DNA from: a virus
Length of the DNA: 27,394 nt
Virus record (IMG/VR): IMGVR_UViG_3300025133_000506
Location: 1-27,394 of that record
Reading direction: 5' to 3' (one strand)
Part shown: piece after piece, positions 2,015-21,766 of the stretch
How the letters are laid out: every line of letters starts with the position of its first letter
How positions within the stretch are numbered: the first letter of the stretch is position 1
Notes under the pieces: generated by a model
Seen by the model: only the letters and a program-made list of their open reading frames with translations
What the model was told of the DNA's origin: nothing
Database searches by the model: none
Program-made: the position numbers and the translations under genes

Positions 2015-2098
2015 CAGTAGGGGTAGGAATCGAACCTACAAGAGCTCTCGCCCACTACCTAAACAGGGTAGCGTGTCTGCCAATTCCACCACCCTACT
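2015..2098 (-). tRNA. Leu-bodied class II tRNA with GUU (Asn) anticodon
   Basis: A complete cloverleaf folds on the minus strand. The acceptor AGTAGGG/CCCTACT has 7 perfect pairs. The D-arm GTGGAATTGGCAGACAC is of tRNA-Leu type. The anticodon stem CTACC/GGTAG has 5 pairs and its 7-nt loop CTGTTTA gives anticodon GUU at 2062-2064. A 15-nt variable arm forms a 4-bp stem (GGGC/GCTC) with a GAGA loop. The T-arm is GTAGG-TTCGATT-CCTAC. The discriminator is G73 and no CCA is encoded. The body and long variable arm are Leu/Ser-like. The anticodon loop differs from E. coli tRNA-Asn (CUGUUAA) only at position 37, where U replaces the usual purine. It starts 4 nt after the AsnRS-like stop. Its amino acid is uncertain: Asn by anticodon and G73, Leu or Ser by body. 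Confidence 0.9.
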
Positions 2099-2102
2099 AT
2101 AC

Positions 2103-2924
2103 CTATATTATTCCTTCTAATTTCATAGCTCTTGCCATTCTATTAACTCCAATTCCTGCCCCAAATCTTGGGAAGAAATCTAAGTTAAGATAATCGTCAA
2201 GTTCTTTCAAAACTCTTTCTTCAGTAAATTGCTTATATAATAAATTAGCATATTCTCCATCTGAAATAGATAGAAAATTATCATACATTTCATTAGCATT
2301 AGAACTTCTTTCTGCTGAACCTATAGTTTCCTGTCCATGCAAAATTACATCTACCTTATTATAGAGTTCTTGATTCTTAGAATTTTGTTTCATATTCCAG
2401 AATGGATGAGAGCGTTGAGGGAAATATTTTAAGAATATAACATCACCATAATCATCATGCATTTTTTCTTCATGCTCTGCCTCTAAATGTTTGACTTTAT
2501 AAGTATCACAAACACAATCATAATGCATATGAATAGAGTTTTTAAATCCAAGAAATTTTAACAACTCTTCTTCAGTAGCTATTAATGTAGCCATATCCCC
2601 TTTGCTTTCAAACTCAAACATTGGGAATATCTTTTGATGTCTACCTTTAATTGGATTAGGTTCATTACGATAGCTCGTAGAGACACAAAACACCCCCTCT
2701 AGCTGAGGATTTTTTAACATTTCATACTCTAACCACATCTGACCTGTTTGGGGTAGAGGATAGTTAATACCGTCAAATACAAATTGACTAATTGTCTTTG
2801 GGTCCTCACAAGCTGACAAGATACTTAACCTGCTTTGCGTTGGAACTTCTACAAATCCCTTTTCTTCTTTAAAATATCTTCTCATTTTATTTACTACTTT
2901 ATCATAGTCAAGTGTTTCGTACAC
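2103..2924 (-). CDS. AsnRS/AspRS-like class II aminoacyl-tRNA synthetase catalytic core
   Basis: This 273-aa protein starts at GTG 2924 (AGGAG 7 nt upstream; TAGTG overlap with the upstream gene). All three class II motifs are visible. Motif 1 is at about residues 20-33 (KGFVEVPTQ). Motif 2 has R86 and E88 (YRNEP), the RH pair at 95-96 and FEFE at about 103-106. Motif 3 is GAGIGVNR (255-262) with its arginine. HGQETIGSAERS (196-207) matches the substrate-site GxExxGGSxR region of AspRS/AsnRS. There is no N-terminal OB-fold anticodon-binding domain, so the size matches stand-alone cores such as the archaeal AsnRS-related asparagine synthetase. Possible roles are asparagine synthesis, charging the adjacent tRNA without reading its anticodon, or modifying another substrate. 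It does not look like bacterial AsnA. Confidence 0.85.
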   Translation of the reverse strand: MYETLDYDKVVNKMRRYFKEEKGFVEVPTQSRLSILSACEDPKTISQFVFDGINYPLPQTGQMWLEYEMLKNPQLEGVFCVSTSYRNEPNPIKGRHQKIFPMFEFESKGDMATLIATEEELLKFLGFKNSIHMHYDCVCDTYKVKHLEAEHEEKMHDDYGDVIFLKYFPQRSHPFWNMKQNSKNQELYNKVDVILHGQETIGSAERSSNANEMYDNFLSISDGEYANLLYKQFTEERVLKELDDYLNLDFFPRFGAGIGVNRMARAMKLEGII

Positions 2925-3220
2925 TAAGCTTCTCCTTCTTCTGAGTCTATTATGTCATCAGCAAAATAAACAATATTATCAATAGTTTCATCTGTTTCTC
3001 TAAGCTTTACCTTGAAAGATAAATCACCATTTTTATTAAGCATTATACCTTTATATGGTCCTGCTACTAAGGTTGTTTTATTATTTTCATTAGGTTCTAT
3101 TCTTTCAATAGCTTCTTCAATAGCATGTATATATTTATTACCTGTTACGCTGTACCCAAGAATTTTCCTGAGTACAGCCTTAAGGTTTTGAAGATGGTCT
3201 CTAATTAGGTTTCTCTTCAA
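2924..3220 (-). CDS. Hypothetical protein upstream of the AsnRS-like gene
   Basis: The open frame gives 98 aa from a TTG at 3220 with a weak AAGAAG RBS. An ATG at codon 60, preceded by AAAGG, would give only about 40 aa. The start is therefore uncertain. The C-terminal half looks beta-rich and then very acidic (YFADDIIDSEEGEA). A 30-nt near-perfect hairpin lies in the 5' part (3149-3178). The stop overlaps the GTG of the AsnRS-like gene, suggesting translational coupling. No family is recognised. Confidence 0.5.
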   Translation of the reverse strand: MKRNLIRDHLQNLKAVLRKILGYSVTGNKYIHAIEEAIERIEPNENNKTTLVAGPYKGIMLNKNGDLSFKVKLRETDETIDNIVYFADDIIDSEEGEA

Positions 3221-10121: not shown

Positions 10122-10950
10122 ACCACTCCGTTACCATTTTTTTATATTCTTTTTCAAATTTCTCTCTTTTATCTTCAAAGATTTTTATATATTTATTCCA
10201 ATCTTTTTTGTTTGTATCTTGCATATCTTCTGTTTTCATACATAAATCCTTCCAATTGCAATAACTACACTCCCAAGAGGCAAATGGAGAAATTTCATTT
10301 ATTTCAGGGAGCTTTTCTGTTCCTAATTTTTGTATTTCCCAATAAAGTTTAGCCATTTCTATAGCTTTAATAGGTACTTCATACTCATTCATTAGACCTT
10401 TTTCTTTATTAAAGAACACTAAAATCATTTTATCTAACCTACCGTACTTTTTTAGAACACCTATACCGTAAGTAGCAAGCTGTAAATCATAAGAGATAGA
10501 CCTATTTTCTATTATATCTCCTTTAAGCTTGCCAAATAACTGAGTATATTTCCAGCTTGTACAGGTCTTGAAATCATAAAGATATACTTTATCATCAGGA
10601 GTAGTAATTATAGCGTCAGCGAAGCCTCTAACGCCTAATTTTTCCATAACAAACTCTTCTTCAATACTGATATGTTTAATTTTATCAACAAAATTAGGAT
10701 TGCTATTAGTTATTGCATTTACTAATGCTTTTTCCATATCATCATGAAAAATTGTACCTGTTCTCATGTTTCTAATAGCATCATTTGAGGTAGGATTAGT
10801 TTCTTCATATTCATTAATTTTAAAGAATCTTTTTCTTGTGCAAGAATAGGAAGAGCTAGCACCAAAATACTTTTCTTTACCAACATATCTTTCTTGTTTA
10901 TTGGTTTCGTTGCATAGCTCTATCCAATTATCATATATATCTTTAATCAT
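10090..10950 (-). CDS. Cas4/RecB-like Fe-S nuclease
   Basis: This 286-aa PD-(D/E)XK nuclease has a probable 4Fe-4S cluster. C37 (SYSCTRKRFF) and C228, C231 and C237 (CSYCNWKDLC) give the one-plus-three cysteine pattern of Cas4/AddB-type enzymes. Active-site residues are H69 (GTIFHDDME), D112 (RGFADAI), D126 and K128 (YDFKT), and Q157 (YDLQLATYG, QhXXY-like). Such enzymes resect DNA ends 5'-3'. With the ERF annealing protein this would make a phage recombination pair. No Cas1/Cas2 or CRISPR array is present, so a CRISPR role is not suggested. Confidence 0.85.
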   Translation of the reverse strand: MIKDIYDNWIELCNETNKQERYVGKEKYFGASSSYSCTRKRFFKINEYEETNPTSNDAIRNMRTGTIFHDDMEKALVNAITNSNPNFVDKIKHISIEEEFVMEKLGVRGFADAIITTPDDKVYLYDFKTCTSWKYTQLFGKLKGDIIENRSISYDLQLATYGIGVLKKYGRLDKMILVFFNKEKGLMNEYEVPIKAIEMAKLYWEIQKLGTEKLPEINEISPFASWECSYCNWKDLCMKTEDMQDTNKKDWNKYIKIFEDKREKFEKEYKKMVTEWYDKYRKTYKM

Positions 10951-10952
10951 AA

Positions 10953-11120
10953 CTACTTTTCTTCCTCCTTATCCTCATGAGGATGTGTTCCTGTATGCTT
11001 TTGCAAGTTATGAATATTTAAAGCTTGTCGCATTACTATATCTTCAAGAACAACAACTTTTTCTTTAAGAATTAAGATTTGTTTAGTAGTTTCTTTGTTA
11101 AATTCGCCTAATTCGTACAT
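10953..11120 (-). CDS. Small coiled-coil protein
   Basis: This 55-aa ORF from ATG 11120 overlaps the end of the 73-aa gene by 13 nt and ends 2 nt before the nuclease gene. It is a single long helix with heptad-like hydrophobics (ETTKQILILKEKVVVLEDIV) and a His-rich then acidic tail (THPHEDKEEEK). The tail region carries AAGGAGG, which serves as the ribosome site for the nuclease gene. Confidence 0.55.
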   Translation of the reverse strand: MYELGEFNKETTKQILILKEKVVVLEDIVMRQALNIHNLQKHTGTHPHEDKEEEK

Positions 11121-11329
11121 TGTACTCCTTCAAATTCATCTAGTATTTTATTTAAATCATTTTCAGTAAGATGGCTAAATTGATGATTATGATATTTAGG
11201 GTGGTCTGCCTCAAAATATGTATCACCGCCACTACCATCGTTCCAAATACTGCCTTTATCGGTTATAGCCTCGTAGCCTAACCCTCTTCTGGTTTTAAAG
11301 TACCTTATACTTTTTACTTTTAGTTTCAT
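11108..11329 (-). CDS. Hypothetical protein, first gene of the recombination operon
   Basis: This 73-aa protein has AAGGAGG 5 nt upstream of ATG. The beta-rich, glycine-containing N-terminal half (RRGLGYEAITDKGSIWNDGS) is followed by a His/Asp region and an acidic helical C-terminus (ENDLNKILDEFEG). A cassette-array element lies 19 nt upstream (11348-11364), so this is probably the first gene of the transcript into the nuclease and replication genes. Confidence 0.65.
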   Translation of the reverse strand: MKLKVKSIRYFKTRRGLGYEAITDKGSIWNDGSGGDTYFEADHPKYHNHQFSHLTENDLNKILDEFEGVQCTN

Positions 11330-11347
11330 TCAACCTCCTTTATAATA

Positions 11348-11364
11348 GTATCATAAAAAGGTAA
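11348..11364 (-). promoter_or_regulatory. Cassette-array promoter-like element (copy nearest the replication block)
   Basis: The minus strand reads TTACCTTTTTATGATAC. It lies between a terminator stem with five T residues (11363-11376) and the SD of 11108-11329. Positions ACC and TATGATA are conserved with the other copies. Confidence 0.65.
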
Positions 11365-11367
11365 AAA

Positions 11368-11431
11368 GAGAAATAGGATAACGGTTTCCTTTATGTTATC
11401 GTTAACGGCATGCCTGCATACACTATTTCTC
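11368..11431 (-). terminator. Terminal stem of the large RNA
   Basis: GAGAAATAG (11368-11376) pairs with CTATTTCTC (11423-11431). Five Ts follow on the minus strand and merge with the next promoter-like element. Inside is a second stem, GATAAC (11377-11382) with GTTATC (11395-11400). Confidence 0.6.
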
Positions 11432-11854
11432 TATTACCGTTTACATAATTATAAACAATCAACACAAATTATCGCAATAATATGTGCTGTCCCTGCCTAT
11501 TCAGCATGGTTAGATTGCTTATAATTACTAAGAGTGAGTGCATCTCTTACCCTTAATCATATTTATGGGTTTATTTCAGTTCACCGAAACCATAAATCTA
11601 CAATTAAGGTCAAGCCCCTCTATAAGGCTTATGGCTTACTTCGCCTTTTGCCTCGCAAAGCAACGAGGGTTCTGCATATAGGTAGCTATAATGAGAAGTA
11701 TTAACTTTCTGATATATAACATTTATCACCTAAATTTATCAGTGTGTGATTTATCGGACACTCTTCATACACATAGTTTATTGATGGGTATCGCACTGAT
11801 ATTTATAAGCTGTTATGGTGACCCAACACTTAGCTGACTGCCAATATTCAGCAC
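11368..11854 (-). ncRNA. Candidate ~490-nt structured non-coding RNA
   Basis: No plausible ORF exists here, but paired segments are dense. Stems include TATCAGTG/CACTGATA (11737-11744/11794-11801), CCTCG/CGAGG (11651-11668), a nested hairpin CCTTAAT+ATTTATGG / CCATAAAT+ATTAAGG (11551-11609), TAAGAG/CTCTTA (11529-11549) and CACA-ATTAT/ATAAT-TGTG with a 4-nt loop (11463-11486). A 9-bp terminal stem GAGAAATAG/CTATTTCTC (11368-11376/11423-11431) encloses GATAAC/GTTATC. Five Ts follow on the minus strand, so the RNA ends in an intrinsic terminator. It is the 3' part of the transcript from 12298. Size and context recall large phage RNAs such as GOLLD or ROOL, but I cannot assign a family. Confidence 0.65.
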
Positions 11855-12058
11855 TTATTTTAGATAACTGTACCAGCCTCTTTCAAAGTTTTTAACTATT
11901 TCGCTAAATAATTTAGACGAGTAGTATCCTGCTTTATTAGAGACATTATTTCTAAACTGAGTAAGTCTAGTAGATAATTTTTTCTCTTCTTGCACTTGAT
12001 TGTGCACCTCATTGAACATATTATCTATATCTTCTTCTGTTAAACTAGATGTATCCAT
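11855..12058 (-). CDS. Hypothetical small protein
   Basis: This 67-aa protein is translationally coupled to the upstream gene (TAATG at 12058). An acidic N-terminal helix (SSLTEEDIDNMFNEVHNQVQ) is followed by a basic, aromatic C-terminal part (KNFERGWYSYLK). It is in the same cassette as 12058-12258 and is followed directly by the large structured RNA region. No family is recognised. Confidence 0.6.
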   Translation of the reverse strand: MDTSSLTEEDIDNMFNEVHNQVQEEKKLSTRLTQFRNNVSNKAGYYSSKLFSEIVKNFERGWYSYLK

Positions 12059-12258
12059 TACTGCCTTTCTTTTTCGTTTTCTACTAATTGCTCTATTTGT
12101 TGTACAACTTTTGGAGCCTCTTTAATCATAGCGTCTCCAAATGCTGACATAGTTTCTCCAAGTTTATCAATTTGATATTCTTGAAATCTTATTAGAGCGT
12201 TAAAAATAGAGTTTTCAAATGATTTAAAATCATCTTTTGTTGGTTGAAAATTATTCAT
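12058..12258 (-). CDS. Hypothetical small helical protein
   Basis: This 66-aa protein has AAAGGA 8 nt before ATG and a cassette element 23 nt upstream (12282-12298). The sequence is helical throughout with an amphipathic pattern (FENSIFNALIRFQEYQIDKL) and a charged end (EQLVENEKERQ). It is the first gene of a two-gene cassette. No function is recognised. Confidence 0.6.
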   Translation of the reverse strand: MNNFQPTKDDFKSFENSIFNALIRFQEYQIDKLGETMSAFGDAMIKEAPKVVQQIEQLVENEKERQ

Positions 12259-12281
12259 TAGTTATTCCTTTAATTATAGTA

Positions 12282-12298
12282 ATATCATAATAAGGTAA
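12282..12298 (-). promoter_or_regulatory. Cassette-array promoter-like element
   Basis: The minus strand reads TTACCTTATTATGATAT; it drives the 12258/12058 gene pair and the large RNA region. It belongs to the ACCTT subtype shared by the copies at 11348, 12397 and 12639. Confidence 0.7.
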
Positions 12299-12327
12299 AA
12301 AGAAGTATTATTACCTTGATATTACTT

Positions 12328-12395
12328 AAAAAAAACTACTACTACAATGTGTATTTACACTTAATCGTAGTAGTAGTATTAACAAGGAGAAAATT
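12328..12395 (-). ncRNA. Gene-less mini-cassette: leader plus terminator hairpin
   Basis: A promoter-like element (12397-12413) is followed, after an SD-like TCTCCTTG leader, by an 11-bp perfect hairpin: ACTACTACTAC (12335-12345) with GTAGTAGTAGT (12367-12377), containing an inner GTGT/ACAC stem. Seven to eight Ts follow on the minus strand. The predicted transcript is only about 60-70 nt with no ORF. It could be a small RNA, an insulating terminator, or a cassette that lost its gene. Confidence 0.5.
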
Positions 12396-12396
12396 A

Positions 12397-12413
12397 ATAT
12401 CATAATAAGGTAA
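12397..12413 (-). promoter_or_regulatory. Cassette-array promoter-like element
   Basis: The minus strand reads TTACCTTATTATGATAT, ahead of the 12328-12395 hairpin cassette. It directly follows the GGGGG/CCCCC terminator of the 12414-12638 cassette. Confidence 0.7.
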
Positions 12414-12433
12414 AGGGGGAATAAATCCCCCTT
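12413..12433 (-). terminator. Terminator of the 12414-12638 RNA cassette
   Basis: AAGGGGG (12413-12419) pairs with CCCCCTT (12427-12433) around a 7-nt AT loop. The stem's end overlaps the next promoter-like element. Confidence 0.65.
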
Positions 12434-12638
12434 ACCTATAGCAGTTGTTTGAAAGATTCATTCCAATGACATGCTTAGGTCATCCATGGTAAGTTGATAA
12501 GTCTTGACCATGATAACTAGGAACATTCTCCTAGTGCTTACTACTGTTGCCTTTTGTTGACATACGATTATCAGTCGTCAATAGCGTCCATTTTTACCTT
12601 TATTAAGGATTTAATTCTTTACTTTAGTAGTAGTATAA
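12414..12638 (-). ncRNA. Candidate ~220-nt structured RNA cassette
   Basis: This stretch lies between two promoter-like elements and ends in a GC-rich terminator, with no ORF longer than about 22 codons. Paired segments include ACTAGGA/TCCTAGT with a 6-nt loop (12516-12535), GGTCA/TGACC (12478-12509) and TTGAC/GTCAA (around 12558-12580). A tiny ORF inside has its SD-like AGGAG buried in the ACTAGGA hairpin. I favour an ncRNA over a peptide, but either is possible. Confidence 0.5.
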
Positions 12639-12655
12639 TTATCATAATAAGGTAA
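12639..12655 (-). promoter_or_regulatory. Cassette-array promoter-like element
   Basis: The minus strand reads TTACCTTATTATGATAA, followed by ATACTACTACTA. It precedes the 12414-12638 RNA cassette and directly follows the terminator of 12694-12945. Confidence 0.7.
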
Positions 12656-12679
12656 AGGGAGAGGATATACCCCTCCCTT
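12655..12679 (-). terminator. Terminator of 12694-12945
   Basis: AAGGGAG (12655-12661) pairs with CTCCCTT (12673-12679) around an 11-nt loop, directly after the stop region of 12694-12945 and abutting the next promoter-like element. Confidence 0.65.
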
Positions 12680-12693
12680 ATACCTATTTACCT

Positions 12694-12945
12694 TTAGCTA
12701 ATTTGTGACATGAAATCAGCTTTATCCTCAAATTGGCGTTCACCTCGTTTAAGATACCAAGATTCACCATTCTGAGATTCTTCAACTTTTCTCATATTCA
12801 GTTTATTAGCTACTGCCAATGCTTGTTTCCTTGTGAAATCATCCATTGGCAAGAATCCATATTCAGCGTCTCTTGGGTCTGCTTGGATTCTATTTTCACC
12901 TTTACCTGAAAAGAAATTAATTGAATTTTGAGTTGAATTACTCAT
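12694..12945 (-). CDS. Hypothetical cassette protein
   Basis: This 83-aa protein has a strong GGAGG 9 nt upstream of ATG. Ser/Asn-rich N-terminus, then RIQADPRDAEYGFLPMDDF, a helical DDFTRKQALAVANKL and a WYLKRGERQFEDK segment. The fold is unknown. It is a single-gene cassette with its own upstream element (12998-13014) and terminator. Confidence 0.65.
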   Translation of the reverse strand: MSNSTQNSINFFSGKGENRIQADPRDAEYGFLPMDDFTRKQALAVANKLNMRKVEESQNGESWYLKRGERQFEDKADFMSQIS

Positions 12946-12997
12946 GTGTATTACCTCCGTTTTAATTAAGAATTGGATGTATAAATACCATATCTAT

Positions 12998-13014
12998 ACA
13001 TCATACTATGGTAA
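12998..13014 (-). promoter_or_regulatory. Cassette-array promoter-like element
   Basis: The minus strand reads TTACCATAGTATGATGT, about 50 nt upstream of the 12945 start. The leader here is longer and differs from the common AATTAAAACAAGG leader. Confidence 0.65.
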
Positions 13015-13127
13015 AGGATGTTTTACACATGAATTGACATACATATATTTTAAGTAATAGGTCAATTCACCGAGCGAGCGTAGCGAGCGAGGCTATGGGA
13101 AAAATAACTTGGGGAGTAGAATAAAAG
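13015..13127. other. Inter-cassette spacer with inverted repeat and GC-rich tract
   Basis: This 113-bp non-coding spacer is longer than any other terminator-promoter junction in the array. It contains GAATTGAC/GTCAATTC (13031-13038/13061-13068, 8-bp perfect arms, 22-nt loop) next to a GC-rich tract with two CGAGCGAG direct repeats separated by CGTAG (about 13070-13092). That composition is foreign to the AT-rich surroundings. No ORF is seen. Confidence 0.5.
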
Positions 13128-13130
13128 AAA

Positions 13131-13146
13131 GAGGCTGTTAAGCCTC
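13131..13146 (-). terminator. Terminator of 13138-13362 with the stop codon in its loop
   Basis: GAGGCT (13131-13136) and AGCCTC (13141-13146) form a 6-bp stem with loop GTTA, which is UAAC on the minus strand. The gene's TAA stop (13138-13140) is inside this loop. A TTTCTTTTATT tract follows. Confidence 0.65.
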
Positions 13147-13362
13147 CTCTTCATTGATTGAATTTTTCATTTGAATCATAAGTCCTCTTTTAGTAGTATA
13201 GAACTCATTAACATAAACTATTTCAATTGAGTCAAAATCAATTATCTCTAAAGCTCCTTTTGCTTTAACTATTCCAAGTATTATACCTGAAGGAATAGTT
13301 TGTCTTTCAAGCCTCCAATCAATATTATTATGAGAGTTCTTAAATATTATTATTGTTCGCAT
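13138..13362 (-). CDS. Hypothetical cassette protein
   Basis: This 74-aa protein has AAGGA 9 nt upstream of ATG. It is beta-rich (MRTIIIFKNSHNNIDWRLER; IIDFDSIEIVYVNEFYTT) with a charged tail ending in EEEA. The stop codon falls in the loop of the terminator hairpin. No family is recognised. It is a single-gene cassette. Confidence 0.65.
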   Translation of the reverse strand: MRTIIIFKNSHNNIDWRLERQTIPSGIILGIVKAKGALEIIDFDSIEIVYVNEFYTTKRGLMIQMKNSINEEEA

Positions 13363-13389
13363 TTTAGTTATTCCTTGTTTTAATTAGTA

Positions 13390-13406
13390 TTATCATAATA
13401 TGGTAA
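13390..13406 (-). promoter_or_regulatory. Cassette-array promoter-like element
   Basis: The minus strand reads TTACCATATTATGATAA, followed by the common leader TACTAATTAAAACAAGGA. It drives 13138-13362. Confidence 0.72.
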
Positions 13407-13410
13407 AAAG

Positions 13411-13432
13411 AAGAGGGCTTACGCCCCCTCTT
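13411..13432 (-). terminator. Terminator of 13433-13783
   Basis: AAGAGGG (13411-13417) pairs with CCCTCTT (13426-13432). The loop region contains GTAA on the minus strand. It begins one base after the TAA stop and runs into CTTTTTACC of the next element. Confidence 0.65.
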
Positions 13433-13783
13433 TTAGTTGGATAATTCAGATGGTATATCGGGATAACTATTAATCTCCCACCATTCACTACCGTCATATT
13501 CTCCACGAGTTATCCAAGAACCATTTGTAAGCCAAATCGTTCCAAATAGATTTTGCCCACCATATCCTGAATCATATTCAAAATTAAGCGAATTAATAAA
13601 ATCAAGTAGTTCTTGGTCTGTATGACTGCATTTTAATTTGTAAATTGTACAATTTTTATCATACTCTTCATCTCCATGAACTATCCTTGCACATTTTACT
13701 AAATCTTTACCTTTTATACCGTTATTGAATTTATAATTTAATAAATCTATTAACTCAATCATTGCATTTATTCTATCCTGCAT
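13433..13783 (-). CDS. Hypothetical cassette protein
   Basis: The start at 13783 (MQDRINAMIEL) is chosen because AAGGAG lies 6 nt upstream; the 10 extra codons of the longer frame are the leader itself. The 116-aa product has an N-terminal helix, a Cys-containing middle (VKCARIVHG, KLKCSHTDQE) and an aromatic, Gly-rich C-terminus (YGGQNLFGTIWLTNGSWITR). It is the longest protein in the array. No family is recognised. Confidence 0.65.
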   Translation of the reverse strand: MQDRINAMIELIDLLNYKFNNGIKGKDLVKCARIVHGDEEYDKNCTIYKLKCSHTDQELLDFINSLNFEYDSGYGGQNLFGTIWLTNGSWITRGEYDGSEWWEINSYPDIPSELSN

Positions 13784-13806
13784 AATATCTCCTTGTTTAA
13801 TTAATA

Positions 13807-13823
13807 ATATCATACTATGGTAA
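13807..13823 (-). promoter_or_regulatory. Cassette-array promoter-like element
   Basis: The minus strand reads TTACCATAGTATGATAT, followed by TATTAATTAAACAAGGAG. It drives 13433-13783. Confidence 0.72.
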
Positions 13824-13852
13824 AGCAGAGTAGTAGTATATATAAGAAAAGA

Positions 13853-13869
13853 AGGGGATTAAACCCCCT
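13853..13869 (-). terminator. Terminator of 13859-14074 with the stop codon in its loop
   Basis: AGGGG (13853-13857) pairs with CCCCT (13865-13869). The loop contains the TAA stop of the gene (13859-13861). TTCTTTTCTT follows on the minus strand. Confidence 0.6.
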
Positions 13870-14074
13870 CTTCACTTATATCATACTCCCATTTATTAAA
13901 TCCCTTAACCTCTTCTATAACACAATCTTCACTACATAAAACATTATCATATAATCCTCCATTATCAGGAAATATCACTAATCTTTTATGTCCATTATTT
14001 TCTCTTAATTCTTCACCACATTTAACACAAATATTATTCATTATTTTAATTCCATGTGCTTTATAATTTTTCAT
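13859..14074 (-). CDS. Zinc-ribbon-like cassette protein
   Basis: The start at 14074 (MKNYKAHGIK) is taken behind AAGGAG; the longer frame reads through the leader. The 71-aa product has a C-x2-C knuckle (ICVKCGEEL) and, about 28 residues later, C-x3-C (VLCSEDC), a FYM/MYM-like or zinc-ribbon layout. The terminator stem encodes the last codons and the stop is in the loop. Confidence 0.65.
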   Translation of the reverse strand: MKNYKAHGIKIMNNICVKCGEELRENNGHKRLVIFPDNGGLYDNVLCSEDCVIEEVKGFNKWEYDISEEGV

Positions 14075-14097
14075 TATTACTCCTTGTTTAATTAGTA

Positions 14098-14114
14098 TTA
14101 TCATAACATGGTAA
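14098..14114 (-). promoter_or_regulatory. Cassette-array promoter-like element
   Basis: The minus strand reads TTACCATGTTATGATAA, followed by TACTAATTAAACAAGGAG. It drives 13859-14074. Confidence 0.72.
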
Positions 14115-14123
14115 AGGAAAAAA

Positions 14124-14141
14124 AGGGGGCGTTAGCCCCCT
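14124..14141 (-). terminator. Terminator of 14149-14328 (UAAC loop)
   Basis: AGGGGGC (14124-14130) pairs with GCCCCCT (14135-14141) closing a GTTA loop (UAAC on the minus strand). A T-rich tract follows. Confidence 0.72.
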
Positions 14142-14148
14142 CTAAGCA

Positions 14149-14328
14149 TTATTTAAGATATTCTTCGAAAGGTACATTTCTTGTTTTACACCAAGCTACC
14201 TTTCTAATCATTTCATGAAAAATCCTAAAAGTTTTTAGCCTTTCTTCATCTCTATCTATTTTATCAGGTTTTAATAGTATATCTATTTCATTTTCAAGAA
14301 GCCTTTTTAGAAATTCAAATTCATTCAT
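14149..14328 (-). CDS. Hypothetical cassette protein (59 aa)
   Basis: This 59-aa ORF starts MNEFEFLKRLLENEIDILLK and ends FEEYLK. It is helical and charged, with one Cys (VAWCKTR). A second ATG-like start is one codon further down. AAGGATAAATAA is the upstream SD region and a cassette element lies 28 nt upstream. Terminator and promoter spacing are identical to neighbouring cassettes, supporting a real gene. No family is recognised. Confidence 0.65.
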   Translation of the reverse strand: MNEFEFLKRLLENEIDILLKPDKIDRDEERLKTFRIFHEMIRKVAWCKTRNVPFEEYLK

Positions 14329-14355
14329 TATTTATTTATCCTTATTTAATTATTA

Positions 14356-14372
14356 GTATCATAACATGGTAA
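14356..14372 (-). promoter_or_regulatory. Cassette-array promoter-like element
   Basis: The minus strand reads TTACCATGTTATGATAC, followed by TAATAATTAAATAAGGA. It drives 14149-14328. Confidence 0.72.
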
Positions 14373-14467
14373 AAAATACTCCTATAATCGACCTTTATAC
14401 AGCTAATATGTCAATTGTCTATAATGCAATATAGAGCCTTTTCATTCTCTATGATTATAGAAGTATT
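14373..14467 (-). ncRNA. Candidate ~95-nt structured RNA closed by a 15-bp stem
   Basis: A promoter-like element at 14466-14482 is followed by no ORF. The RNA's first bases AATACTTCTATAATC (14453-14467) pair over 15 bp, with one U-G wobble, with its last bases GATTATAGGAGTATT (14375-14389). Five or more Ts then run into the next element. An inner hairpin ATAGAG/CTCTAT lies near the 5' side. The closing stem overlaps the end of the promoter-like element, implying transcription starts within or just after TATGATAA. The closed, multi-arm shape and minimal length favour a stable ncRNA. Confidence 0.65.
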
Positions 14468-14482
14468 ATCATAACATGGTAA
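14466..14482 (-). promoter_or_regulatory. Cassette-array promoter-like element
   Basis: The minus strand reads TTACCATGTTATGATAA; it drives the 14373-14467 RNA cassette. The common AATTAAAACAAGG leader with its SD is missing here, as expected for a non-coding transcript. Confidence 0.72.
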
Positions 14483-14486
14483 AAAA

Positions 14487-14504
14487 AGGGGCTGTTAAGC
14501 CCCT
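14487..14504 (-). terminator. Terminator of 14511-14660 (UAAC loop)
   Basis: AGGGGCT (14487-14493) pairs with AGCCCCT (14498-14504) closing a GTTA loop (UAAC on the minus strand), followed by seven Ts. Confidence 0.75.
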
Positions 14505-14510
14505 CTATAA

Positions 14511-14660
14511 TTATGCTAAGAACTCCGTCATATCATATCGTTCAATATAAATATTAATAGCGTCTATGATATTTAATACTGCCTTATTATATTCAGGAGT
14601 GTTGTCTCCTTGCAGTCTTAATCTAAGCTCTTTTCTTAGTTCAATCATCTTTTTATACAT
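14511..14660 (-). CDS. Hypothetical cassette protein (49 aa)
   Basis: This 49-aa ORF has an ACAAGGAATATT leader before ATG. It is helical, with a basic N-terminal segment (MYKKMIELRKELRLRLQ) and an acidic C-terminus. The stop is 6 nt before a UAAC-loop terminator. Its place in the regular promoter-SD-ORF-terminator layout is the main evidence for coding. Confidence 0.65.
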   Translation of the reverse strand: MYKKMIELRKELRLRLQGDNTPEYNKAVLNIIDAINIYIERYDMTEFLA

Positions 14661-14684
14661 AATATTCCTTGTTTTAATTAGTAT

Positions 14685-14701
14685 TAATCATAACATGGTA
14701 A
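14685..14701 (-). promoter_or_regulatory. Cassette-array promoter-like element
   Basis: The minus strand reads TTACCATGTTATGATTA, followed by ATACTAATTAAAACAAGGA. It drives 14511-14660. Confidence 0.72.
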
Positions 14702-14707
14702 AAAAAA

Positions 14708-14725
14708 AGGGGGCGTTAGCCCCCT
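14708..14725 (-). terminator. Terminator of 14729-14914 (UAAC loop)
   Basis: AGGGGGC (14708-14714) pairs with GCCCCCT (14719-14725) closing a GTTA loop, followed by about nine Ts on the minus strand. Confidence 0.78.
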
Positions 14726-14728
14726 CTC

Positions 14729-14914
14729 TTATTTATTCCTCTGTTCAGATACCACTTGAACTGCCTTTACAACATTCTTACCGTTGCGTACAGTTCGTTT
14801 ACACTCTTCTTTAGTGAAGATTGCTAGACCTTTAGCAACGAAGAATGAGTTAATGGTTAATGAAGCACCTACTTGAATACCCTTTTGAGTTAAATTAAGT
14901 AATGTATTTTTCAT
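14729..14914 (-). CDS. Hypothetical cassette protein, basic
   Basis: This 61-aa protein has AAGGATATACAA before ATG. A moderately hydrophobic central stretch (IQVGASLTINSFFVAKGLAIF) is followed by a basic segment (KEECKRTVRNGKNVVKAVQ). It might be membrane-associated or amphipathic. No family is recognised. It is a single-gene cassette. Confidence 0.65.
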   Translation of the reverse strand: MKNTLLNLTQKGIQVGASLTINSFFVAKGLAIFTKEECKRTVRNGKNVVKAVQVVSEQRNK

Positions 14915-14945
14915 TTGTATATCCTTGTTATTTAATTATAATTAA

Positions 14946-14962
14946 CTATCATAACATGGTAA
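14946..14962 (-). promoter_or_regulatory. Cassette-array promoter-like element
   Basis: The minus strand reads TTACCATGTTATGATAG, followed by TTAATTATAATTAAATAACAAGG. It drives 14729-14914. Confidence 0.72.
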
Positions 14963-14969
14963 AAAGAAA

Positions 14970-14985
14970 GAGGTTGTTAAGCCTC
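14970..14985 (-). terminator. Terminator of 14990-15229 (UAAC loop)
   Basis: GAGGTT (14970-14975) and AGCCTC (14980-14985) form a 6-pair stem closing GTTA (UAAC on the minus strand); one position is a non-Watson-Crick pair. TTTCTTTTTACC follows. Confidence 0.65.
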
Positions 14986-14989
14986 TCTC

Positions 14990-15229
14990 TTAGGTTAGGT
15001 TCTTTATCTTACGGTTAGTAACTTCACATTTAAATGACCATTCTTGTTGTTTATGCATAAATAGTAATTTTCTACATCTTTTTAATAACTTTCTCATATC
15101 GTCTTTTACAAGAAAGTATTCAAGTCGTATATTTTTATCTATATTGTACTTGTAATAAGGAGATGTAAAGTTTGTTTTAATAAACTTTAAATCATTAATT
15201 AATGCTTTAAGTAGTCTGTATGCTTCCAT
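14990..15229 (-). CDS. Hypothetical cassette protein, very basic
   Basis: This 79-aa protein has ACAAGGATAAATAA before ATG. It is highly basic (MRKLLKRCRKLLFMHKQQEW; TNRKIKNLT) with an N-terminal helix (LLKALINDLKFIK), which suggests nucleic-acid or ribosome contact but proves nothing. It is a single-gene cassette with its own upstream element and terminator. Confidence 0.65.
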   Translation of the reverse strand: MEAYRLLKALINDLKFIKTNFTSPYYKYNIDKNIRLEYFLVKDDMRKLLKRCRKLLFMHKQQEWSFKCEVTNRKIKNLT

Positions 15230-15258
15230 TTATTTATCCTTGTTTTAATTATAGTTAA

Positions 15259-15275
15259 CTATCATACTATGGTAA
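15259..15275 (-). promoter_or_regulatory. Cassette-array promoter-like element
   Basis: The minus strand reads TTACCATAGTATGATAG, followed by TTAACTATAATTAAAACAAGG. It drives 14990-15229. Confidence 0.72.
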
Positions 15276-15284
15276 AAAGAATTA

Positions 15285-15302
15285 GAGGAGCGTTAGCTCC
15301 TC
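15285..15302 (-). terminator. Terminator of 15309-15452 (UAAC loop)
   Basis: GAGGAGC (15285-15291) pairs with GCTCCTC (15296-15302) closing a GTTA loop (UAAC on the minus strand). TAATTCTTTTTACC follows. Confidence 0.72.
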
Positions 15303-15308
15303 CTGTTC

Positions 15309-15452
15309 TTATGGAATCTCAATATCATTATCTTGTGCATGCTTTAGGAACTCAAGGTCTTGTTCTTCCATTTGTTTATCTGTAAGCATTTCTCGTTCTT
15401 CTGCACAAGATAAACATTTACAATCTAATTGATGAACTGATTCAAATAACAT
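15309..15452 (-). CDS. Acidic Cys-containing cassette protein (47 aa)
   Basis: This 47-aa ORF has TAAGGAGTACACT before ATG. A three-cysteine cluster (LDCKCLSCAEE) near the N-terminus could bind metal. The rest is acidic (EEREMLTDKQMEEQDLEFL). It is the first protein-coding cassette of the array from the divergent junction, so it may be expressed very early. Confidence 0.62.
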   Translation of the reverse strand: MLFESVHQLDCKCLSCAEEREMLTDKQMEEQDLEFLKHAQDNDIEIP

Positions 15453-15480
15453 AGTGTACTCCTTATTTATTTAATTAGTA

Positions 15481-15497
15481 TTATCATACTATGGTGA
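15481..15497 (-). promoter_or_regulatory. Cassette-array promoter-like element
   Basis: The minus strand reads TCACCATAGTATGATAA, followed by TACTAATTAAATAAATAAGGAG. It drives 15309-15452. One base differs from the TTACC of other copies. Confidence 0.7.
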
Positions 15498-15655
15498 AAA
15501 AAAACTGAGCAGGATGCAAGCCTGCTCTTATAAGATGTTCTAGTGTAACCTATTATAAATCCAACTTTGATTAACATAACTTGTATTCCTTTCTGTTGGG
15601 TTTATCGATAGGAAGTTTTACACACAGGGAATCTTATCAGATTTTGTTTTAGTTC
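15498..15655 (-). ncRNA. Candidate ~155-nt long-hairpin RNA
   Basis: The first transcript of the array has no convincing ORF but folds as one long interrupted hairpin. Stems, from outside in, are ATAAGAT/ATCTTAT (15530-15536/15631-15637), GTGTAA/TTACAC (15543-15548/15618-15623), CCTAT/ATAGG (15549-15553/15608-15612) and AAATCCAAC/GTTGGGTTT (15557-15565/15595-15603, one mismatch). About 30 nt form the apical loop. A GAGCAGG/CCTGCTC terminator with an 8-T tract closes it. The collinear order of four stems is hard to explain by chance. Confidence 0.7.
15507..15527 (-). terminator. Terminator of the 15498-15655 RNA
   Basis: GAGCAGG (15507-15513) pairs with CCTGCTC (15521-15527) around a 7-nt loop, followed on the minus strand by AG and eight Ts: a textbook intrinsic terminator. 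Confidence 0.85.
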
Positions 15656-15672
15656 TTATCATACTATGGTAA
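15656..15672 (-). promoter_or_regulatory. First cassette-array promoter-like element
   Basis: The minus strand reads TTACCATAGTATGATAA, the rightmost copy, at the edge of the divergent junction. It drives the 15498-15655 RNA. Confidence 0.72.
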
Positions 15673-15915
15673 TACATTGTGTTACTTATGTGGATTATAT
15701 ATTGAGTGATAGTGGTGGGTGAGTGGTGGATGTGTACACGATGAGTGTAACTAACTCAACCAATTCACTTGAACTCAACCTAATCCCAACCCTTAACCCC
15801 AATTCGATGGGGGGTGGAACCAATGTATTTCAACCACTCCCATTCTAGAATAAATTTTGGAACATTTATACAGAAAGTGCATATATTATAAGTATATAAT
15901 TGGGGTAAAAAATCT
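15673..15915. other. Divergent early/late junction
   Basis: This 243-bp non-coding region separates the minus-strand array from the plus-strand late operon. On the plus strand it begins G/T-rich (GTGGTGGGTGAGTGGTGG) and switches to C/A-rich (ACCTAATCCCAACCCTTAAC). It contains a direct repeat AACTCAACC (two copies about 27 bp apart), an ACCCC/GGGGT hairpin and a GTGTACAC palindrome. TATATTATAAGTATATAAT about 35 bp before 15916 could be a promoter -10 region. An origin or packaging-site role is possible but unproven. Confidence 0.45.
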
Positions 15916-16095
15916 ATGTCTCAAGATTTTGAAGTGTTTGATTTACAAAGAGGTGTGTTTACGGATGAGGATAGTAGAGAGATTATTAAAGCTTACGAAG
16001 AGTTTGATAAAGCATATCAAGTATATCAAGCTGAAAGAGAGATTGTTAAGACTATTCTGGAACAAGCTATAATAAAAGAGGAAGAATTAAGTTGA
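15916..16095 (+). CDS. Small helical protein at the head of the late operon
   Basis: This 59-aa ORF starts at ATG 15916 with GGGG upstream. It begins MSQDFEVFDLQRGVFTDEDS and continues as an acidic helix (REIIKAYEEFDKAYQVYQAE) ending EEELS. Its composition is far more protein-like than the Leu/Lys-rich alternative frame 15857-16072. It precedes the 13-bp repeats and small terminase. No family is recognised. Confidence 0.65.
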   Translation: MSQDFEVFDLQRGVFTDEDSREIIKAYEEFDKAYQVYQAEREIVKTILEQAIIKEEELS

Positions 16096-16096
16096 A

Positions 16097-16122
16097 TCTA
16101 TATATAGAGTTTATATATAGAG
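16097..16122 (+). repeat. Two copies of a 13-bp repeat, outlying group
   Basis: TATATATAGAG occurs twice with 13-bp period (AGAG at 16106 and 16119), just after the stop of 15916-16095. It is the same unit as in the larger block at 16172-16234. Confidence 0.7.
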
Positions 16123-16147
16123 TAAGTGAGTATGTGAGTATGTATAC

Positions 16148-16174
16148 AAATAATTACCTTATAGGTAATTATTT
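16148..16174 (+). terminator. 11-bp AT-rich hairpin between the repeat groups
   Basis: AAATAATTACC (16148-16158) and GGTAATTATTT (16164-16174) are perfect inverted repeats with a 5-nt TTATA loop. It lies between the two 13-bp repeat groups and could be an attenuator, RNA-processing or protein-binding site. As a terminator it is weak, with little GC and no clean U-tract. Confidence 0.45.
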
Positions 16175-16234
16175 ATATATAGAGTATATATATAGAGTAT
16201 ATATATAGAGTATATATATAGAGTATATATATAG
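16172..16234 (+). repeat. 13-bp tandem repeats abutting the small-terminase start
   Basis: Unit TATATATATAGAG is repeated with exact 13-bp period (AGAG at 16181, 16194, 16207, 16220 and a partial at 16233), about five copies. The last partial unit ends at the ATG at 16235. Candidate roles are a terminase recognition (pac) site, an iteron-type origin, or a transcription/translation control region. No normal SD precedes 16235, so the repeat's GAG may substitute. Confidence 0.85.
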
Positions 16235-17002
16235 ATGGATACAATTTATAAAAAAATTGATGGTGAATCAGTAGGGTTCAATGTTTATTGCAAGGATGAA
16301 GCAGATGAACTTGGTATAGATTATATCCATTGGAAAGAGTGCTCAGATGGAGATTGGGGTCTTTCTGATGATGGATATGTAGGTAAATGTCTATATAGAC
16401 GAGAATACAAATCCAAACAGAAGAAACCATCTGTAGCAGTAAAGTTATGCTATGGAATGGCGTTCATAAGTAAGAACTCAAAAATTTTATATGAAAAAAA
16501 TAGAGCTTATAATTCTTATTCACACCAAAGACCACAGCATTGGATTGAAGCAGAGCTTAGAAAGAAGAGAACAAAGAATACCATAGATGCCTTTGTCGCT
16601 TACACAATTGCTGGTAAGAAGCCAGATTGGGAAGTTTTGGGTACAATGTATAGGTCTGACCAAAAAGAGCCTGACAAGACCGTTAAAAAGTTATTTAAAC
16701 AAAAAGAGGTTCAAAGTATGGTAAAAGAAGAGTTGAAGAAAGTTCTGATAGGTAAGGGTATTACAGAAGAAATGGTACTTGACTTGCATAATGAGGCGAT
16801 AGAGATGGCTAGGGAGAAGCAGGATATATCTTCATTCCTGCGTGCAACAGAGAATTTTATGGATTTACTGGATATGAAGCCAAGTAAGAAGGAAGTTACT
16901 CAGTCATTAGAGATGGGTGTTACCACCAAGATATTAGATGCTATTAATAGTGAGGAGAAGAAATCTCTAAAGATGTCTGAAACAAAGGAATTGAGTGAAT
17001 AA
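16235..17002 (+). CDS. Probable small terminase subunit / DNA-recognition protein
   Basis: This 255-aa protein lies immediately before TerL, overlapping it by 8 nt. The N-terminal half contains several Cys and aromatic residues (YIHWKECSDGDWGL, VKLCYGMAF). The middle is a basic helix-rich domain (WIEAELRKKRTKNTIDAFVAY, PDWEVLGTMYRSDQ) that could be helix-turn-helix-like. The C-terminal part is a long charged helical region. Position and composition fit a TerS that recognises packaging sites such as the repeats just upstream. No TerS family motif is certain. Confidence 0.6.
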   Translation: MDTIYKKIDGESVGFNVYCKDEADELGIDYIHWKECSDGDWGLSDDGYVGKCLYRREYKSKQKKPSVAVKLCYGMAFISKNSKILYEKNRAYNSYSHQRPQHWIEAELRKKRTKNTIDAFVAYTIAGKKPDWEVLGTMYRSDQKEPDKTVKKLFKQKEVQSMVKEELKKVLIGKGITEEMVLDLHNEAIEMAREKQDISSFLRATENFMDLLDMKPSKKEVTQSLEMGVTTKILDAINSEEKKSLKMSETKELSE

Positions 17003-18485
17003 GGAGCAACAAGTACAAAAGGAAGTCCTAACTAAGTTAAAGAAGAACATGATTATGTTCGGTAAGGTTATTATGCCGAATATGTTTGTATCCGCCTCTC
17101 CTGACTTTCATTATACAATTGCTGATGTATTGATGCAGGAAGATGAGAAGCAGATTAATATTATTGCTCCTAGGGGTCATGCTAAATCCTCTATTGTTGG
17201 AGGTGTGTTCCCTTTATATCATTTATTCTTTGATAAAGGACCAAAGCTTATTGTACTTGTTTCAAGAACTCAAGACCACGCTGTAAAGCTTTTAGGTACA
17301 ATAAAGGATGCATTAGACTATTCACCGCCATTAAGAACATTATTTGGATATTGGGGTGTGCATTCAGCTAAAGCATGGGCTAAAACAGAAGTTGAGCTTA
17401 AAGATGGTTCTATGATTATCTGCAAAGGTACAGGACAACAGCTCAGAGGAATTAAACATGGAAATCAAAGACCTACACTTATTATTGTAGACGACCCAGA
17501 AGATGAAAATAACACTAAGACAGCAGAAGCGATGGAAGGGAACCTTAGATGGTTACTTCAGTCTGCTGTTCCTTCATTAGACCCTATAAAAGGTCGATTA
17601 GCAGTTATTGGAACACCTATTCATCAAAGATGTTTGGTAGAAACGCTGAAAGAAATGAAGGGTTGGAATAATATGCTATTTAGACCTGATATGGCTAATA
17701 ATAAAGCTTTATGGGAAGAATGGCAACCAATTAGCAAGTTAAAGGAGAAGAAGGAAGAGCTAGAATCTATTAGTAGAGTGAGTGTGTTTTATAGAGAATA
17801 CTTATGTGAGATTGTAGGTGATGAGGACCAACTATTTAAGGAGAAGTATTTTCAATACTATGAAGGCAATCTGGCAGAAAACAAAACACTACATCTCACA
17901 GAGTTTAAGGGAGAAAAATGCGATAAGAAAATCCCTGTTAATATTTTTATGGGTATTGACCCTGCATCTTCTACTAGACAAACAGCTGATTTTTCAACTA
18001 TTGTTACTGTTGCTGTTGATAAAGATAATAACCGCTATATGTTACCTTATTTCCGCAAGCGTGTTTCCCCCATGGCTTTGGCAGATGCTATAATAGAAAG
18101 ATTTAAATTATATAAACCTGATAAATGTAGGATAGAATCAGTAGGTTATCAGGAGATGTTGAGAGAATATATCAGACAGCGTTGTGAAGAAGAAGGATTA
18201 TTTATATCTGGGCTGGAGATAAAAGAAAATCCCAGAACATCTAAATCATCTAGACTAGAGACATTACAGCCTTACTTTGCACAAAAGAAGGTGTTTATGC
18301 AAGGAGATATGGAAGATTTTAGGAATGAATTACTATTATACCCTAGAAGTAAGCATGATGATTTACTAGATGGGTTCTATTATGCTAATAAGAAATCTTA
18401 TACTCCTACTCATAATATCAATAAAGATACTACCAAGAAGCGTAATATTAATCTTACTAATGATTATAGTTGGTTAGTAGCGTAA
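16995..18485 (+). CDS. terL: Terminase large subunit (packaging ATPase-nuclease)
   Basis: This 496-aa protein starts at GTG (AGGAA upstream). Walker A is APRGHAKSS (residues 58-66) and Walker B is TLIIVDDPEDE (161-171) with the catalytic acidic pair. A C-terminal RNase H-like nuclease has FMGIDPASS (D at about 321), RIESVGYQ (E at about 378) and HDDLLDGF (about 454-461). It pumps DNA into the prohead and cuts it. The length and motif order are typical of GxAKS-type podovirus/siphovirus terminases. Confidence 0.95.
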   Translation: MNKEQQVQKEVLTKLKKNMIMFGKVIMPNMFVSASPDFHYTIADVLMQEDEKQINIIAPRGHAKSSIVGGVFPLYHLFFDKGPKLIVLVSRTQDHAVKLLGTIKDALDYSPPLRTLFGYWGVHSAKAWAKTEVELKDGSMIICKGTGQQLRGIKHGNQRPTLIIVDDPEDENNTKTAEAMEGNLRWLLQSAVPSLDPIKGRLAVIGTPIHQRCLVETLKEMKGWNNMLFRPDMANNKALWEEWQPISKLKEKKEELESISRVSVFYREYLCEIVGDEDQLFKEKYFQYYEGNLAENKTLHLTEFKGEKCDKKIPVNIFMGIDPASSTRQTADFSTIVTVAVDKDNNRYMLPYFRKRVSPMALADAIIERFKLYKPDKCRIESVGYQEMLREYIRQRCEEEGLFISGLEIKENPRTSKSSRLETLQPYFAQKKVFMQGDMEDFRNELLLYPRSKHDDLLDGFYYANKKSYTPTHNINKDTTKKRNINLTNDYSWLVA

Positions 18486-18531
18486 TATAAATAAATGGAA
18501 CAAACTTTAATGGAGGTCGTTTAATACGCCA

Positions 18532-20757: not shown

Positions 20758-20804
20758 TGTTGTTGCTGTCTTTAGACAAACAACGAAAATAAAGGTTAGT
20801 AAAA

Positions 20805-21761
20805 ATGGAACAAATCCTAGAACAAAGTAATGCTGGTGAATTTCCAGTAGAGACTGCACAGGTGCCTCAAACTGAGACTACTCCTGTAACAGCAGACCCT
20901 ATATTTGGAAATAAATCAATTGCTGAACAAGGTATGCCCCAAGGGCAAACATTTCCAATGGGAGATGTAACTCAACCCCAAACTCAAGAGGCTGTACCTC
21001 AACAGGGAACAGTAGAGCAGGGCGAGATTAAAGATGACCCTCGTAGACATGAATATTGGCAATCACAGACTGATAAGGTTAAGAACGAGTTAAGAGGAGT
21101 ACAGGATGAGCTGGATTATTATAAAAATACTTTAGCTCCAGTAGAGCAAGTTATAAAAGCTAATCCAAAGGTACTCGATAACTTAGAATCGTTATCCAAT
21201 GGTCAAACTCAAGGATTAAACCCTCAACAGGGAAATCCACAAGAGACATCATTGCAGAAACCTCTCAGACCAGAGAAACCACATTCTTACAACGAGGTCG
21301 ATGCGTATAACGACCCCAATAGTGAGTCGTTTAAATATAGAATGTCTTTAGATAAACATAGAGACGATATGATAGATTGGTATGGAAACATTGACCAAGC
21401 TCGTCAGATGCAACAGCAACAAGCTATGCATTACCAGCAACAGCAAATGTTACATAATAACACTCGTAATAACGCAATAGCGTCATGGGGTTATACTGAA
21501 ACAGATGCGGATGGCTTTGTTCAATGGGCTTCCAATCCCTCAAATATCTCTATGAATAATCTTAAAGCACTCTATGAAATGCAAAAAAACGGTAATCAAC
21601 AACAAATAGAGTCACAGCAGAAAGTGGTACAAATGCAACAACAGCAAGAACGATTAAAAGTCCCAATGACTTCAGCAGTCCAAAAAGGACAAGCTCCTGC
21701 TCCGATGACAGATGACCAAGCTTTCTCAGCGTCTCTATTTTCTAACGCCAAAAGGAGATAG
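20805..21761 (+). CDS. Probable scaffolding protein
   Basis: This 318-aa protein is rich in Gln and Pro with an unstructured N-terminal 75 residues, then a coiled-coil (QSQTDKVKNELRGVQDELDY) and a Gln-rich helix (DQARQMQQQQAMHYQQQQM). A basic C-terminus ends NAKRR. It sits between portal and capsid genes, the classic scaffold position. Scaffolding proteins drive prohead assembly and are then released. Confidence 0.82.
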   Translation: MEQILEQSNAGEFPVETAQVPQTETTPVTADPIFGNKSIAEQGMPQGQTFPMGDVTQPQTQEAVPQQGTVEQGEIKDDPRRHEYWQSQTDKVKNELRGVQDELDYYKNTLAPVEQVIKANPKVLDNLESLSNGQTQGLNPQQGNPQETSLQKPLRPEKPHSYNEVDAYNDPNSESFKYRMSLDKHRDDMIDWYGNIDQARQMQQQQAMHYQQQQMLHNNTRNNAIASWGYTETDADGFVQWASNPSNISMNNLKALYEMQKNGNQQQIESQQKVVQMQQQQERLKVPMTSAVQKGQAPAPMTDDQAFSASLFSNAKRR

Positions 21762-21766
21762 AATAA

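Follow-up and report, generated by a model that had tools for sequence, protein, structure and literature searches.

In marine phages, the gene of an AsnRS-like enzyme, here called X, is strictly and recurrently followed by a class II tRNA with an asparagine anticodon. Judged from sequence and gene neighborhood, X appears to represent a new family that derives from AsnRS and is linked to pyrimidine synthesis. We propose, with a probability of roughly 45%, that X is an asparagine-activating enzyme feeding pyrimidine synthesis and that the dedicated phage tRNA is a non-ribosomal asparagine carrier for X. What phage tRNAs are for is a long-standing question. The literature searched yielded no paper on the linkage of X and the tRNA, on a tRNA-Asn with a class II body, or on a role of an AsnRS paralogue in making pyrimidines, and a phage tRNA of this kind was not found described.

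Results

Organization of the X-tRNA locus

The window, i.e. the whole stretch analysed, comprises 27,394 nucleotides of IMG/VR record IMGVR_UViG_3300025133_000506 and is a fragment of a tailed phage with 33% G+C. Genes for terminase, a P22-like portal, and an SU10-like major capsid protein are located at 16995-23113, and the region from the early genes to the terminase region (10950-16235) contains short ORFs only. The X gene (2103..2924, minus strand) encodes 273 aa, with a GTG start codon at 2924 and the stop codon at 2103-2105. Immediately 5' of X is a 98-aa ORF (2924..3220, minus strand) with no family match; its stop codon overlaps the start codon of X, and translational coupling of the two is possible.

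A 4-nt spacer (2099..2102, minus strand) separates the stop codon of X from the 5' end of the tRNA (2015..2098, minus strand). The mature tRNA body, read from 2098 to 2015, is 84 nt long and has a Leu-type D arm, a 15-nt variable arm, an A1-U72 pair, and G73 at 2015. The anticodon stem is CUACC/GGUAG, and the anticodon loop CUGUUUA (2060..2066, minus strand) holds GUU at 2064-2062 and U37 at 2061. ARAGORN reported tRNA-Asn(GTT) at 2014-2098 on the minus strand, and Rfam RF00005 matched 2015-2098 with 49 bits (E 8e-8). The first-pass annotation had read this locus as a class II synthetase core without an anticodon-binding domain, 4 nt before a Leu-bodied GUU tRNA with U37 and G73; ARAGORN, Rfam, Pfam, and AlphaFold2 confirmed it.

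X has an AsnRS-type core and pocket

The Pfam domain tRNA-synt_2 (class II D, K, N core) was detected in X with 59.2 bits (cut-off 25), and no other domain was found. X is a complete class II core with motifs 1-3, in which R86, E88, R206, and R262 are invariant. The N-terminal OB-fold anticodon-binding domain is absent from X, since the ORF starts at the core and residues 2-272 align to the core only. A PDB sequence search with the single X protein gave no match, and profiles were needed. The net charge of X was judged too weak an indicator to argue for or against tRNA binding. The family corresponds to PHROG 29758, which is listed as of unknown function. The AlphaFold2 model of X, built from 79 homologues, had a pLDDT of 94.4 and a pTM of 0.91. 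In the structure comparison, AsnRS cores were the top matches (Z 28.4, rmsd 2.0 over 246 residues), followed by AspRS (Z 27.2) and then by the archaeal asparagine synthetase AS-AR (Z 24.2).

The pocket residues with which AsnRS and AspRS read the amino-acid side chain are known. Gln62-x-x-Leu65-Glu66 was found in 223 of 223 X proteins, as in AsnRS (SGQLNGE in E. coli), and its AspRS counterpart is Lys198-Gln199; this comparison with the AspRS lysine rests on the common LPQxxQ motif, as single AspRS and AsnA sequences aligned poorly in hhalign. Arg206, the equivalent of AspRS Arg489, is also retained by X. Since all X proteins carry AsnRS-type pocket residues, X should bind and adenylate asparagine. 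X thus resembles AsnRS (class IIb) in the fold, the three motifs, and the Gln62/Leu65-Glu66/Arg206 signature, but differs from it in the missing anticodon-binding domain, in an identity of about 22%, and in the frequent location of cellular X genes in pyrimidine clusters.

X could instead be an ammonia-dependent asparagine synthetase of the AsnA or archaeal AS-AR type, with an indirect link to pyrimidines. AS-AR (3p8t, 3rex) and AsnA are likewise stand-alone AsnRS-type cores used as metabolic enzymes, AS-AR is AsnRS-derived and has no anticodon domain, it matched X in structure (Z 24.2), and the NCBIfam model for asparagine synthetase A matched X weakly. That match was, however, 29.8 bits against a cut-off of 322. 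AS-AR binds Asp (3reu), whereas the AspRS-type lysine is replaced in all X proteins, and it would be left unexplained why genomes keep pyrDEF but lack CarB, PyrB, and PyrC (see below). We regard this identity of X as very unlikely.

X and the tRNA are linked in marine phages

Viral contigs were searched with the tRNA loop and T arm alone, which yielded 84 loci with a proper class II tRNA. X was found just upstream in all 60 loci with at least 1300 nt of upstream DNA; seven loci were without X, each with no more than 366 nt upstream. Ordinary tRNAs caught by the same pattern were never accompanied by X. When the search started from the enzyme, the tRNA was present in 148 of the 150 marine-clade loci with room for it. 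The spacer between the X stop codon and the tRNA was 4-12 nt in most linked loci. In the X tree, tRNA-linked members fell into separated groups, namely the clade of the window, a large marine cyanophage-like clade, the isolated L025/L234, and L095.

The cyanophage isolates P-SSM2, P-SSM5, and P-SSM7 carry the same pair, in which the X family member is annotated as 'tRNA ligase' and the adjacent tRNA as tRNA-Asn. In the GenBank record of P-SSM2 (AY939844.2), the tRNA-Asn is placed at 164094-164179, inside PSSM2_205. ARAGORN placed this tRNA at L012 6786-6873, immediately behind the 'tRNA ligase' gene and about 2 kb ahead of the recorded position, which is an apparent annotation slip.

The first-pass annotation had suggested searching related phages for conserved linkage, and both searches revealed it. 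Neither an alternative fold with an ordinary Leu anticodon nor relatives with a normal tRNA-Leu were found. The proposal of a dedicated enzyme-tRNA pair therefore holds for these phages, where the linkage is strict and both partners appear to be of asparagine type, but not for the X family, which is not defined by the tRNA.

The tRNA keeps charging elements and varies in decoding elements

The minimum-energy fold of the naked tRNA sequence was not a full cloverleaf. Twenty homologues showed a cloverleaf, in which 15 of the 20 pairs have compensatory changes; these homologues were picked by stem pairing, which biases the figure of 100% paired positions but not the double changes. Position-specific variation was counted over 119 distinct X-linked tRNAs from the enzyme-first, loop-blind search, with GUU as a selection condition. 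G73 was present in 119 of 119, and the 1-72 pair was UA in 112 and AU in 7. Position 37 was U in 108, C in 2, and A in 9, so that U37 is typical but not invariant; position 33 was C in 5 and position 38 was C in 30. The variable arm ranged from 11 to 33 nt. When the GUU condition was dropped for the same clade, no other anticodon was found directly after X, with five stretches read by eye. That U37 is unusual, as noted at first reading, is borne out by the 302 other tRNAs of the fetched loci, 300 of which have a purine at this position.

Of the tRNA-Asn features, GUU and G73 are present, the class I body with a short variable loop is absent, and A37 occurs in just 9 of 119; position 37 is where the loop differs from that of normal tRNA-Asn. 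Of the tRNA-Leu features, the class II body is present, and A73 and a Leu anticodon are replaced by G73 and GUU. Since the D arm and variable arm are Leu-type, one might suspect that the finder had misread a normal tRNA-Leu gene, or that the tRNA is degenerate. This reading was refuted and its probability is close to nil: G73 and the 7-nt GUU loop are kept in 119 distinct sequences, and the stems are compensated.

Bacterial Asn identity consists of the anticodon and G73, and GUU plus G73 confer Asn identity when moved into another tRNA (PMC9976931). A37 is a determinant for bacterial AsnRS, C38 is a determinant for AspRS, U1-A72 makes Asp-tRNAAsn subject to amidation, and G73 serves as an antideterminant against LeuRS (PMC9976931). 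Insertion of Leu or Ser at Asn codons, one of the outcomes first considered, is unlikely in view of G73 and GUU. The tRNA may also be a decoy against anticodon nucleases, another of these outcomes. The X-linked tRNA shares U1-A72, G73, and GUU with the pathway of ND-AspRS plus GatCAB amidation (PMC9976931); the product of that pathway goes to the ribosome, whereas the phage tRNA has lost decoding features. As G73, a weak 1-72 pair, and GUU are kept while positions 37 and 33 are altered, selection appears to maintain the charging and amidation identity of this tRNA and not its decoding features.

Locus L095 belongs to another X clade. Here X is immediately followed by a class II tRNA whose anticodon is GUC (Asp) and which has U37, C38, U1-A72, and G73. 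The X stop codon there is near 2820, and the GUC tRNA is at the same place as L521. For this tRNA, Asp charging followed by amidation would fit better than a function as Asn-tRNA for ribosomes. At 14 loci (L482, L486, L492, L504, L507, L519, L527, L536, L552, L565, L578, L581, L587, and L591), phage tRNAs with a Leu-type class II body and the loop CTGTCTC (GUC, pyrimidine 37, C38) were observed with no X in the fetched stretch; where read by eye, they have U1-A72 and G73. They represent a broader group of phage tRNAs that are Asx-type and have a class II body.

X occurs without the tRNA in cells and in many phages

Relatives of X with 50-64% identity were found in CPR bacteria, DPANN archaea, Dependentiae, Chlamydiae, Bacteroidota, and Gamma- and Alphaproteobacteria, and X is present without the tRNA in many phages, including many freshwater ones. 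The tRNA was beside X at 0 of 80 cellular X loci. No CUGUUUA tRNA was found in 45 X-bearing cell genomes, a pattern that misses other loops; the tRNA covariance model was unspecific on whole cellular genomes and appears to match Leu and Ser tRNAs generally. A loop-blind scan of 19 whole viral records with a tRNA-less X revealed no class II Asn/Asp tRNA. Since all X-bearing cells and many X-bearing phages are without the tRNA, X cannot need it everywhere, and X can act without it.

These data bear on the possibility that the pair serves protein synthesis, with X as a minimal AsnRS attaching asparagine to the neighboring tRNA. The AsnRS-like core with its pocket and all three motifs, the Asn-type anticodon, G73, and the strict linkage agree with such a role. 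However, no part of the tRNA is more conserved than its anticodon, yet X has no anticodon-binding domain, so another enzyme probably reads the anticodon. In addition, tRNA-less X is common and tied to pyrimidine genes, the tRNA-linked X proteins of two clades have just two common residues that are rare in other X proteins, and the tRNA does not conserve its decoding features. A role of the pair in translation is hence improbable.

X is associated with pyrimidine genes

Homologues of pyrD, pyrE, or pyrF adjoin X at 24 of the 80 cellular X loci, in Gammaproteobacteria, Chlamydiae, Bacteroidota, Alphaproteobacteria, Dependentiae, and Pasteurella atlantica. The gene order in P. atlantica is pyrD, X, and pyrF-pyrE; in Aureispira, X is beside pyrD and a pyrE-pyrF fusion. 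P. atlantica has two OMP decarboxylase-type genes (G021:C1 1582496-1583128 and 1941125-1941739), one of them in the X cluster. X homologues at five DPANN/CPR loci (L103, L145, L154, L157, and L174) are in reduced genomes and have no adjacent pyrimidine genes.

The enzymes of the first three steps are largely missing from X-bearing genomes. PyrB was over the cut-off in 2 of 22 X genomes, compared with 14 of 14 control genomes. CarB exceeded the cut-off in one of 24, and a large CarB fragment was seen in addition. PyrC was over the cut-off in 2 of 30 and, with the dimeric model, in 0 of 22; weaker PyrC-like matches were seen in Bacteroidota. PyrF was over the cut-off in 32 of the 47 X-bearing cellular genomes searched. 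The remaining third or so, without a PyrF match, are reduced CPR and DPANN MAGs, in which X may have another function or which may be incomplete.

Within the order of Aureispira, X was found in 9 of 299 genomes, and PyrB was absent from all nine. PyrB was present in 53 of 60 sampled X-less genomes of this order (51 over the cut-off and two as split genes), a contrast with a Fisher p of 2e-7, which is optimistic because the genomes are related. In Pasteurellaceae, the contrast fails, as the sampled X-less genomes are without PyrB too. Among phage isolates, the cyanophages with PyrE (P-SSM2, P-SSM5, and P-SSM7) are exactly those with X, and PyrE also occurs in two environmental phage contigs with X and the tRNA. 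As a matter of genomic association, X stands where CarAB, PyrB, and PyrC would be needed in genomes with pyrDEF. A role of X in pyrimidine synthesis is well supported by this genomic evidence.

Discussion

The evidence moves the interpretation of the X-tRNA pair from translation to metabolism. We infer the exact reaction of X and the role of the tRNA as follows. Asparagine holds five of the six ring atoms, and asparagine plus one carbonyl carbon equals dihydroorotate. Most likely, X would form dihydroorotate from asparagine, bicarbonate, and ATP and in this way bypass carbamoyl-phosphate synthetase, aspartate carbamoyltransferase, and dihydroorotase. An adenylating enzyme acting with bicarbonate could close the ring, and carbamoyl phosphate, PyrB, and PyrC would not be needed. 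The pathway would be continued by host PyrD and then by host or phage PyrE. That a single enzyme makes dihydroorotate from bicarbonate and asparagine, either free or as Asn-tRNA, in place of the first three enzymes is a tentative suggestion, which we hold to be possible but doubtful.

In some marine phages, X comes with a dedicated class II tRNA that retains its identity for Asn/Asp charging as well as the 1-72 pair that the tRNA-dependent amidotransferase recognizes. If this tRNA is charged while ribosomes use it poorly, it could feed asparagine to X, a carrier role that would suit hosts making asparagine mainly on tRNA. This carrier proposal would account for the tight operon and for a tRNA that conserves its identity elements but has lost those for decoding. 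Several observations stand against this explanation of X and the tRNA as a whole. The tRNA of the window has A1-U72, not U1-A72; all X-bearing cells and many X-bearing phages do without the tRNA; class II GUC tRNAs occur in phages with no X nearby and may serve a purpose of their own; and about one third of the X-bearing cellular genomes are without a PyrF match.

Alternatively, X could be a pyrimidine enzyme next to an independent tRNA, whose changed anticodon loop and long arm would leave it functional after the cleavage of host tRNA-Asn/Asp by anticodon nucleases, or which would otherwise aid translation. In favor of this reading, many X genes work without a tRNA, there are class II GUC tRNAs without X nearby, and resistance to host nucleases has been proposed for phage tRNAs with anticodon-loop mutations (van den Berg 2023, PMC10264068). 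The X-linked tRNA resembles the latter in its altered anticodon loop; those tRNAs have no described enzyme partner, whereas the X-linked tRNA has a strict partner and a class II body. An independent tRNA is, moreover, difficult to reconcile with X at 60 of 60 tRNA-first loci with enough upstream DNA and a spacing of 4-12 nt, or with linkage in L095 and in two or more X clades that lie apart from each other. A rescue tRNA would also need to decode, which a pyrimidine at position 37 and C33 should harm. We consider two unconnected genes rather unlikely.

To our knowledge, the first three steps of pyrimidine synthesis are regarded as near universal. If X acts as an asparagine-activating enzyme of pyrimidine synthesis, a widespread synthetase-derived family would replace all three steps and add a new pathway. 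It would explain the presence of pyrDEF without pyrB in Aureispira-like bacteria and in many intracellular bacteria, and for phages, X would be a gene for making nucleotides. With one enzyme and one RNA, the purpose of phage tRNAs would become directly testable on a conserved tRNA that appears to be selected for charging identity while its decoding features decay.
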